From Spiroplasma diminutum CUAS-1 (lineage in GTDB: Bacteria; Bacillota_I; Bacilli_A; Mycoplasmatales; Mycoplasmataceae): 64,000 nt of DNA. Positions within the stretch are counted from its first letter, which is position 1, and the number at the start of each line of letters is the position of its first letter. Below the pieces are notes generated by a model. It saw only the letters and a list, made by a program, of their open reading frames with translations. It was not told the origin of the DNA and searched no databases. The stretch covers positions 1 to 64,000 of the forward strand of contig NC_021833.1 of NCBI RefSeq assembly GCF_000439455.1, in the 5' to 3' direction. This document shows, piece after piece, positions 4,580 through 10,870 of this stretch. A program made the position numbers and the translations under genes.

Positions 4580-7012
4580 ATGAATGATATTAAACATGGT
4601 CGTATTTTAGAAATTGATATTAAAAATGAAGTAGAAAAAGATTTTTTAGAATACTCAATGAGTGTTATTGTTAGTCGTGCCCTACCTGATTTAAAAGATG
4701 GATTAAAACCAGTTCATAGAAGAATTATTTATGCTATGAATGATTTGAAAATTACATCTGATACACCACATAAAAAATCTGCACGTATTGTTGGTGAAGT
4801 AATTGGTAAATATCATCCACATGGTGATTCATCAGTTTATGAAGCAATGGTTAGAATGTCGCAAGATTTTTCATATAGATATCCACTTGTTGAGGGACAT
4901 GGTAATTTTGGTTCTATTGATGGTGATGGAGCTGCAGCTATGCGTTATACTGAAGCAAGACTTTCCAAAATCACTTCAGTATTATTAAAAGATATTGATA
5001 TGGATACAGTTCCGTTTATTGATAATTATGATGCTTCTGAAAAAGAACCAAAATATTTAACAGGATACTTTCCAAATCTTTTAGTAAATGGTGCAACTGG
5101 TATTGCTGTTGGTATGGCAACCAATATTCCACCTCATAATTTAAGAGAGATAATTGGTGCTATTGTTGCTTATATAAAAAATGATCAAATAACAATTGAT
5201 GAAATTTTAACTTATATTAAAGGCCCTGATTTTCCAACAGGTGCTCTTATGACAAATGGTAAGAGCATGATAGATGGATATAAAACAGGAAAAGGAAATC
5301 TTATAATAAGGTCAAAAATTGATATTGAAGATACAGGAAAACATCAAAGAATTGTTATAAGTGAGATCCCATATCAAACAAACAAATTAAAAATAGTTGA
5401 AAAAATAGCTGAACTTTATAAGAATAAAATTATAGGTGGTATATCAGATATTAGAGATGAATCAAACTATGAAGGGATTAGAATTGTTGTTGAACTTTCA
5501 AAAAATTCAAATCCACAATTAATAATTAAAAAACTTTATAAGTATACTAATTTGCAATCAAGTTTTGCAATTAATATGTTGTCACTTAATAATGGAATTC
5601 CTGTTGTTTTAAATATAAGAGATATTATTAAATTTTATGTAAAACATCAAATTGAAATGATTCTTAAAAGAAGTGTTTTTGAAAGAAATAAATTAAATTC
5701 AAGATTACATATTTTAAATGCAATTAGAGTTACGTTAGATCATATTGATGAAATTATAAAAATAATTAAAGAATCAAAAACAACAGAAATAGCAAATGAA
5801 AAATTATTTGAAGCATTTGGTTTTGATGATAAACAATCAAAAGCAATTTTAGATATGAGACTTCAAAGATTGGTTGGTCTTGAAAGAGAAAAAGTTGAAC
5901 TTGATATAAAAAATATTGAAATTAGAATTTCTGAACTTGATGAAATTTTGGCTTCGAAGGATAGACAAAATAATTTATTAATTGAACAGCTTGAAGATAT
6001 TGCAAAAAAATTTGGTGATGATAGAAGAACAAAAATTATTGAAGAAGATGAAACACAAATTGATGAAGAAGAATTAATTCAAGATTCACAAATGCTAATA
6101 ACTTTATCTGGAGAAGGATATATTAGAAGATTATCCAATGAAGAATTCAAAACACAAAAACGTGGAGGTAAAGGTGTAATCATTAATAGTAATCAAGATG
6201 ATAATATTGTTATTGCAAAAGTTGGTAAAACTAAAGATGATGTCTTGTTTTTCAGTGATGAAGGAAAAGTTTATAGAATTAAGGCATACAATATTACACA
6301 ATTTTCTAGAAATGCACGTGGTGTTCCAATAATCAATTTTATAGGAATAAATTCTTCAGAAAAAATTACTTCAATTTTATCTTTAAAAGATAAAAAAAAT
6401 ATTTATAAATATTTATTATTTATAACTCAAAATGGAGTAGTTAAAAAAGTTGAAATTGAAGAATTCAACAGAATTAATAATTTTGGAAAAATTGCTATTA
6501 ACCTTGATGAAGGAGATAAATTAGTTTCTGTTATTCCAACAGTTGGCGAATCAGAAATCTTAATTGCATCTCAAAATGGAAAAATAATTAAAGTTAATGA
6601 AAATGATTTCAGACCAATGTCTAGATCTTCTAGAGGTGTTAAAGGTATGGGATTAGATAAAAATGATGTTGTTGTTTCTTCATGTTCAAGTTATAAAAAT
6701 GAATGTGTTGTAACAATATCTGATAAAGGAATTGTAAAAAAAACACTTATAAGTGAATATAATATTTTTGGTAGAGGTGCTAAAGGTGTTGTTGGAATGA
6801 AATTAAGTGACAAAACAGGAAAATTTAAATCTGTATTGCCAATAAGAGAAACAGATGAAATCTTAATGATTTCATCAAAAGGTAAAGCAATTAAAATTGG
6901 AGCTCAGGATATAAATCTTCAATCAAGAAATTCAACAGGAGTAATTGGATTTAATTTGGATGAAGATGAATATATAACAGCTGCGACATTAGAATGAAAC
7001 AAAGGTGAATAA
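4580..7012 (+). CDS. gyrA: DNA gyrase subunit A
   Basis: GyrA carries the DNA cleavage-reunion activity. The product is 810 residues; a TGA Trp at 6995-6997 sits five codons before the true stop. The active-site tyrosine is Tyr123 in the AMRYTEARL context. The quinolone region [12 protein letters not shown] keeps the serine equivalent to E. coli Ser83 and has Glu at the position of Asp87. The C-terminal beta-pinwheel carries a GyrA-box-like RGGKGV stretch (about residues 527-532), and similar RGAKGV/RGVKGM blades follow. It is cotranscribed with gyrB, and serS starts three bases after its stop. Confidence 0.97.
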
Positions 7013-7014
7013 AA

Positions 7015-8280
<1,266 letters not shown>

Positions 8281-8296
8281 TGTTTCACGTGAAACA
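8281..8296. other. parS: parS site 1 (ParB/Spo0J binding site)
   Basis: The 16-bp sequence TGTTTCACGTGAAACA is a perfect match to the classical bacterial parS palindrome bound by ParB/Spo0J. It starts at the base after the serS stop codon, about 8.3 kb from dnaA, which is the usual origin-proximal position. No ParB or ParA gene lies in this window, so the binding protein would have to be elsewhere. Confidence 0.85.
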
Positions 8297-8344
8297 TTAT
8301 TTTTTATAGAATTGTTTCACGTGAAACAATTCTATAAAAAATAA
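8297..8344. repeat. parS: Perfect 48-bp palindrome enclosing parS site 2
   Basis: The second TGTTTCACGTGAAACA copy is at 8313-8328. It is the centre of a perfect inverted repeat with two 24-bp arms (8297-8320 and 8321-8344) and no loop. The outer parts of the arms are AT-rich and have T runs, so the transcript could also form a terminator hairpin for the gyrB-gyrA-serS unit. As DNA it is a ParB nucleation site and could extrude a cruciform. The dual use is my inference. Confidence 0.8.
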
Positions 8345-8382
8345 ATTTATTAATTAGACTTAAAAAATGATATTATATAAAT

Positions 8383-8468
8383 GTCATTGTAAGGGTGACG
8401 TTCGAACTTGGTCAGGACCGGAAGGTAGCAGCCATAAGAATCTAGTGCCTTGTACAGTGACTTTTTTT
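8383..8468 (+). ncRNA. ffs: Signal recognition particle RNA (4.5S type)
   Basis: This is the RNA scaffold that binds Ffh for membrane targeting of proteins. The universally conserved domain IV is seen as GGTCAGGACC then GGAAGGTAGCAGCC, around 8410-8433. The ends pair: GTCATTGTAAGG from 8383 with CCTTGTACAGTGAC ending at 8461, followed by seven T residues that should terminate transcription. The RNA is about 80 nt, the short type without an Alu domain, unlike the long Bacillus subtilis scRNA. Position next to tadA and dnaX matches other Firmicutes. Exact ends are estimates. Confidence 0.93.
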
Positions 8469-8489
8469 ATTTTTAGGAGATTTTTTAAA

Positions 8490-8950: not shown

Positions 8951-10870
8951 ATGGAAAACAAAAAATCACTTTATAGAGAATATAGACCTAAAAATTTTGA
9001 TCAAGTCGCAGGTCACGAAGGAATTAAAGAAATATTAATTTCTCAAATAAAAACAAATTCATTTGGACATGCTCTATTATTTTCTGGTCAAAGAGGAACT
9101 GGTAAAACATCAATAGCAAAAATATTTGCGAAAGTAGTTAATTGTCAAAATTTAGATGGTTATAATCCATGTGATGAATGTTTGAGTTGTAAAGAATTTA
9201 ATTCTAATTCTCATTCAGATATATTTGAGATTGATGCTGCTTCAAATAATGGAGTTGAAGAGATAAGAAATATAAAATCTAATATTTCATTATTACCGAG
9301 TTTTTCAAAATATAAAGTCTATATAATTGATGAAGTTCATATGTTATCTAATTCAGCTTTTAATGCTTTACTTAAAACATTAGAAGAGCCACCTAAACAT
9401 GTACTGTTTGTTTTAGCAACAACTGAATTTTCAAAAATTCCTGCAACTATAATTTCTAGATGTCAGTTATTTAATTTTAAGAGAATTGCTCAAATATCTC
9501 TAGAAAATAAAGTAAATGAAATTTGTGAAAAAGAAGGTAAAAAAATAACACAAGATGCTCTTAATGAAATATATTATATGTCTGATGGCTCTTTAAGGGA
9601 TGCATTAAATTATTTGGAACAATCAATAACAATATCAACAGAAGAAGTAAATATAGAAATTCTGAAAAAGATATTTTATATTGCTACAAAAAATGAAAAA
9701 ATTGAAATAATAAGAAATGTTATTGAAGGAAAGACAAAAGAGATTATTTCATATTTTGAAAAGGCAAATAATCAGGGAATAGATTTTCAAACTATGACAC
9801 TTAGTTTATTAAATATATTAAAAGAAATAATAGAAGTCAAATTAACAGAAGACATTAATTTTTTAGTAAATATAAATGAAAATGATTATGAGTTTTTTAA
9901 GAATATTGATATTAAAATATTTTTTGATCTTTCAGATAATATAGCTGATTCATATACAAAATCAAAAAATTCAAATATAAGTTTTCAATATATTTTAATA
10001 AATATACTTAAAACAGTTGCTAATAAACAACTTATAAGTGTTTTAAAAAGTAATGAATTAAATGATAATTTTTCAATTATTCATGAAAATAATTTAGAAA
10101 TTTCTAAAGTAAAAATAGTTGGACCTGAAATAGTTGAACCTGAAATAGTTGAACCTGAAATAGTTGAACCTGAAATAGTTGAACCTGAAATAGTTGAACC
10201 TGAAATAGTTGAACCTGAAATAGTTGAAGAGCAAAATATTGAACGCAATAATGAAGAAAAACCAAAATTGGAAAATGAAATTAATGATTTTTTCATTTCA
10301 GAAGATGAATCAAAATTTTTAAAACTTCAAATGAAATTGTTAATATCTGAATCTAATTACTATAAAAATATAATCGATTTTACAAATGATCAAATTATTA
10401 ATGTTCTTGTAGGTGCAAATAAGGAATCTAGAGGATATTATGAAGAAAAATTTAATAATATATTTTCCCCAGAATCTATAAATAATAATTCTGAATATAT
10501 TCAAAATTTTATTATGTTTTATGGAACAAAAATTACAGCTGCAAGTGCAGACTCTTTAATAATAGTTTCAGAAGAAAGAACTATATCAAAATGAATTAAT
10601 AATAAATTACAGAATGAAAAAAATAGAAAATTGGTATTTTCATATTTTAAAAGAGAAGTGAAAATAATTTGTTTAGATAAAAAAAGATGAGCTGAAATAA
10701 AGATTGATTTTATGGATAGAAAGAATAATAATAAATTGAATAATTATTCAACAGTATCAACAGAAGAATTTTATTCAAACTTAACTTTAAATATTGACGA
10801 AGAAGAAAACGAATATTTAAAAAGAGCAAAGGAACTTCTTGGAAATCAAAATATTAAGGTTGTGGACTAA
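8951..10870 (+). CDS. dnaX: DNA polymerase III subunits gamma/tau
   Basis: This is the clamp-loader ATPase that links the replisome. It has 639 residues, with a TGA Trp at 10592-10594. Walker A GQRGTGKT is at residues 46-53. A four-cysteine zinc module with CDECLSC follows near residue 75, then DEVHMLS (Walker B) and the SRC motif. Between the clamp-loader part and the tau-like C-terminus lies a run of seven exact PEIVE repeats (residues 392-426). The ATG follows a plausible GAGGT site. recR overlaps the stop by one base. The small yaaK gene usually found between dnaX and recR is missing. Confidence 0.95.
10124..10228 (+). repeat. Seven exact 15-bp tandem repeats inside dnaX
   Basis: The unit CCTGAAATAGTTGAA is repeated seven times without a mismatch and encodes PEIVE each time. 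Unit length is a multiple of three, so copy-number change keeps dnaX in frame. The repeats form an acidic, proline-containing linker before the C-terminal polymerase-binding region. Confidence 0.95.

Follow-up and report, generated by a model that had tools for sequence, protein, structure and literature searches.

Among described systems, the closest to the locus considered here is the Spo0J-parS type of ParABS of Bacillus subtilis, which shares with it an identical 16-mer consensus, an origin-proximal position, a ParAB operon beside rsmG/mnmG and the presence of SMC and ScpA. Spiroplasma diminutum differs from this type in having a single two-site cluster in the whole genome and in the fusion of parS to the stop codon of a gene and to a terminator hairpin. 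JCVI-syn3A is reported to lack ParB and parS (PMC8339304, which cites Livny 2007 for Mesoplasma, Ureaplasma and Mycoplasma). In mollicutes that bear ParB, unlike the mycoplasmas and mesoplasmas, which are without one, a complete ParABS centromere persists, shrunk to a single small cluster of sites, and such a mollicute is a minimal natural system for testing the role of one parS cluster. Searches of the open literature for parS in Spiroplasma or Mollicutes, for parS with serS and for parS as a terminator returned no paper on the locus, and none describing extended palindromes at parS was found there. The reading that we favour, and consider likely, is that two 16-mers form the sole parS centromere of the S. 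diminutum chromosome, that the core of the first also supplies the stem of the serS terminator, and that the arms of the second are kept by selection or by template switching.

The parS pair and its ParABS machinery

We analysed a stretch of 64,000 nucleotides of the S. diminutum chromosome (the window, 64 kb), in which the locus comprises the following features.

6994 to 8280, forward strand: serS (seryl-tRNA synthetase), with its stop TAA at 8278-8280, inside the site 1 stem
8274 to 8303, forward strand: 30-bp perfect palindrome around site 1, the proposed serS terminator hairpin
8281 to 8296, no strand assigned: parS site 1, exact 16-mer TGTTTCACGTGAAACA, abutting the serS stop codon
8297 to 8344, no strand assigned: 48-bp perfect palindrome around site 2
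8302 to 8307, forward strand: T-tract TTTTAT, just after the site 1 hairpin
8313 to 8328, no strand assigned: parS site 2, exact 16-mer TGTTTCACGTGAAACA
8368 to 8376, forward strand: predicted extended -10 promoter-like motif TGATATTAT for the SRP RNA, deduced from sequence
8376 to 8473, forward strand: small SRP RNA (ffs; Rfam RF00169, 63 bits), starting at ~8376

A first-pass annotation of this DNA had placed two exact parS 16-mers behind serS with a 16-bp spacer between them, and both positions proved correct. Matches to parS with up to three mismatches numbered 6 in the 64-kb window, against 0.38 in dinucleotide shuffles, and no further parS-like site with up to two mismatches was present elsewhere in the 945-kb genome, in which the pair lies 8.3 kb from the start of dnaA. 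Searching plasmids for the parS locus gave no match. A scan of a genome collection returned at least 119 loci with parS pairs, and since such pairs are common across bacteria, the pair as such is not special.

The genome encodes SMC, ScpA and an intact parA-parB operon of the soj/spo0J type, in which parA directly adjoins parB beside rsmG, ~33 kb from dnaA on the side opposite parS. ParB (291 aa) has the domains ParB_N, HTH_ParB and ParB_C; its GERRTRA CTP-binding motif and HTH match B. subtilis Spo0J, which is also its nearest solved structure (E 7e-47). A second, more distant ParB-like gene of ~255 aa, which may be Noc-like or derived from a mobile element, was observed far from the origin in four genomes of the genus (G007, G015, G013 and G018; L023, L024, L025 and L026).

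ParB and parS were found together in all 20 of the 20 genomes of the genus, with parS located behind serS or, in genomes from whose block serS had moved, behind gyrA. At the level of the family, parS with at most one mismatch was present in 39 of 39 ParB-bearing genomes and in 1 of 18 without ParB, the sole match among the latter lying far from serS, and the two were jointly missing from several genera. Across the order, 60 of the 64 ParB-bearing genomes carried parS and the other 4 had two-mismatch variants (three of them the symmetric TGTTCCACGTGGAACA); the resulting co-occurrence (Fisher p ~1e-30) is uncorrected for shared descent. Position was conserved as well: in nearly all ParB-bearing members of the family, parS has gyrA/serS on one side and the SRP RNA-tadA-dnaX block on the other. 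Six families of the order show parS adjoining serS, and elsewhere in the class further families have parS sites to either side of serS.

That parS follows serS as such was ruled out, because in three genomes of the genus (G005, G010 and G019) serS has been relocated and the parS pair has remained behind gyrA, indicating that parS belongs to the origin region and not to serS. The relocated serS (G005, G010, G019; L031, L036 and L045 with L242, L243 and L244) has a reading frame close behind it and no terminator. In another genome (G001), a second serS copy that is 74% identical over the query was seen at G001:C1:673184-673861, besides the copy adjacent to parS.

As refuting tests of its proposal that ParB nucleates here, the first-pass annotation had named a search for the ParB gene and for conservation of the 16-mer; the gene was found and the 16-mer was conserved in relatives. 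The presence of ParA, ParB, SMC and ScpA, the joint retention and loss of parS and ParB and the conserved position all speak for that proposal. Judged from sequence, a canonical parS centromere is firmly identified, and the two 16-mers very probably form an ordinary, working, origin-proximal centromere. ParB would load at the two 16-mers as a CTP-dependent clamp, spread and recruit ParA, leading to origin segregation, and would probably recruit SMC-ScpAB for arm alignment. The single parS copy of four relatives (G015, G103, G173 and G195) suggests that one site is enough.

Site 1 and the end of the serS transcript

Site 1 lies in a 30-bp perfect palindrome that was absent from the first-pass annotation, and its stem AATAATGTTTCACGTGAAACATTATT (8276-8301) takes in the serS stop, such that TAA pairs with TTA beyond the parS core, the left arm being partly constrained by the stop codon and by the A+T-rich genome. 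In a purpose-made scan with T-tract scoring, the hairpin gave -9.2 kcal/mol and nT 3.57, and the surrounding 51 nt (8262-8312) folded at -12 kcal/mol (z -3.8). A simple terminator scan had flagged the site 2 stem alone and did not report site 1, whereas the T-tract-scoring scan found it. At this gene end, site 1 offers both parts of an intrinsic terminator, a stable hairpin and the T-tract behind it.

Like described intrinsic (Rho-independent) terminators, site 1 lies at a gene's 3' end and has a perfect stem with a T-tract directly after it. Relatives without ParB carry ordinary hairpins of this kind at the same place, the serS stop, in an identical TAA...TTATTTTT layout (AAATAAGACTTTACGTCTTATTTTTT, for example). 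Unlike ordinary terminators, the site 1 hairpin has the invariant parS 16-mer as its stem core and is A+T-rich outside that core, and its top would be fixed by ParB binding.

With one criterion applied throughout, 24 of 42 parS-bearing relatives had a parS-core hairpin with a T-tract, in 4 an ordinary terminator stood apart from parS on its upstream side, and no genome of the 42 had both types. The remaining 14 had no terminator by the criteria applied, so termination by parS is not obligatory. T-richness at site 1 lay downstream in 32 genomes and upstream in 6, whereas site 2 showed no polarity (14 vs 13), all these counts being uncorrected for shared descent. In G005 and G010, where serS has moved away, it is at the stop of gyrA that parS forms this same hairpin.

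Site 1 is therefore well supported, on this comparative evidence, as the core of a predicted intrinsic terminator of serS. Its symmetric core would have been co-opted as the stem of a terminator ending the gyrA-serS transcript, in which the A's flanking the core, including those of the TAA stop, would pair with the flanking T's before the T-tract, where the transcript is predicted to end. The earlier proposal that the serS transcript terminates in this region is thus supported for site 1, which had not been singled out, and is not supported for the 48-bp palindrome, after which no T-tract follows. Such termination could plausibly protect the SRP RNA promoter. If site 1 truly ends serS transcription, one 16-bp sequence would serve both chromosome segregation and transcription, and there would be a simple reason for a centromere fixed behind one gene, namely that parS would also keep RNA polymerase from reading on through the zone where ParB loads and through the SRP RNA promoter.

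The 48-bp palindrome and extended arms at parS

Re-derivation from the sequence bore out site 2 as the centre of a loop-less perfect palindrome of 48 bp (8297-8344), whose left arm is the entire inter-parS spacer and whose right arm is an exact inverted copy of it. This and the 30-bp palindrome of site 1 were the longest loop-less palindromes of the window, the next in length measuring 22 and 20 bp; as a background for the 64-kb window, 100 Markov simulations of it gave a longest palindrome of 17.7 bp on average and never one above 28 bp. The arms of the 48-bp palindrome are T-rich on the 5' side and A-rich on the 3' side, which leaves neither strand with a T-tract behind the hairpin, and the palindrome therefore does not qualify as an intrinsic terminator of the normal kind.

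The long form (38-56 bp) occurred in eight genomes, all in one clade, and the 48-bp palindrome was ruled out as a general feature. One member of this clade, G015, has lost it, apparently by contraction between the parS repeats. Within the clade, arms of the same genome matched at 11.9 of 12 positions, compared with 9.2 of 12 when arms were crossed between genomes (permutation p ~1.5e-4), and the matched arms contained no G-U pair. Differences among G011, G012 and G013 included a paired 1-bp insertion on both sides. The covariation of the arms in relatives that the first-pass annotation had proposed to check was thus seen, yet for the long form it is confined to one sub-clade, and template-switch correction, a neutral process, would produce it just as well. 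Perfect Watson-Crick arms and the paired insertion fit such correction at least as well as selection, and either selection on a hairpin or recurrent correction by template switching as the DNA is replicated may have kept the site 2 arms perfect in this sub-clade. Palindromes below ~100 bp are tolerated in bacteria, and the earlier view that one of this length is rarely stable unless selected was overstated. The 48-bp palindrome is a lineage-specific extra, ornamental or selected.

The same observations bear on a rival account, in which the locus would be a plain parS pair with an incidental hairpin and incidental arms. The arms would be inverted copies that arise, and stay perfect, through template switching at a self-complementary core, with no role in transcription. 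The purely Watson-Crick arms of the inner clade and the paired insertion agree with it, as does the exact copying of the spacer into the right arm of site 2 in S. diminutum; in addition, the single-copy loci of G015, G103, G173 and G195 look like contractions between two parS repeats, which implies that the parS array is recombinationally active. This account leaves unexplained, however, why A's upstream and T's downstream are polarised at site 1 and not at site 2, and why there is little or no extended parS stem beside separate terminators. We regard it as possible, though unlikely.

Extended arms at parS were also found in other bacteria. Among the 287 parS sites in the 119 loci listed, which come from many phyla, were chosen as close pairs and include related genomes, 31 had arms extending 6 bp or more past the core, against 0.5 with cross-paired arms, and 24 were terminator-like, against 8.3 in the control. 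The parS cores of five loci that differ widely in composition (L216, L202, L139 from Streptomyces, L188 and L173) sit in perfect palindromes of 40-46 bp; those of L216, L188, L202 and L173 resemble S. diminutum in this extension of the 16-mer and differ from it in the sequence and composition of the arms. By this comparison, extended parS palindromes are common, and the S. diminutum case is extreme rather than unique. It is rather doubtful that palindromic arms at parS are a widespread, selected centromere feature with a function of their own, be it a transcription-free zone made by termination or a DNA structure aiding ParB or SMC loading.

An explanation that places the extended palindrome at the level of DNA, as a cruciform or dyad that would form part of the centromere and aid ParB loading or SMC entry, with no RNA hairpin involved, would draw on the excess of armed sites in this set, on the small share of terminator-like ones (just 24 of 287) and on arms whose perfect Watson-Crick pairing fits DNA. 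Against it, many relatives with ParB and parS have no arms at all, which shows that arms are not needed for centromere function, and the selection of the 287 sites as close pairs, related genomes included, weakens the excess as support. We consider this explanation improbable. Very improbable is that the 48-bp palindrome alone is a bidirectional terminator shielding the SRP RNA promoter: the RNA hairpin of 8262-8360 is very stable (-28.6 kcal/mol, z -7.1) and a loose pattern scan flagged the site 2 stem, but its tail is AAAAAATAA, A-rich on both strands and without a T-tract on either, T-tract polarity in relatives is random at site 2 and the long form is restricted to one sub-clade.

Neighbouring features of the window

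Much of the genus conserves the promoter-like motif ahead of the SRP RNA in the form TGnTAnTAT. Closer to dnaA, a DnaA-box-like TTATACACA was observed at 1402-1412 of the window, in the dnaA-dnaN intergenic region, which is likely to be oriC. Downstream of the SRP RNA, dnaX contains 7.7 copies of a 15-bp unit that are 99% identical (10113-10228 of the window), encoding a VEPEI repeat in the tau/gamma subunit of DNA polymerase III, and the copy number of this repeat likely varies between strains.
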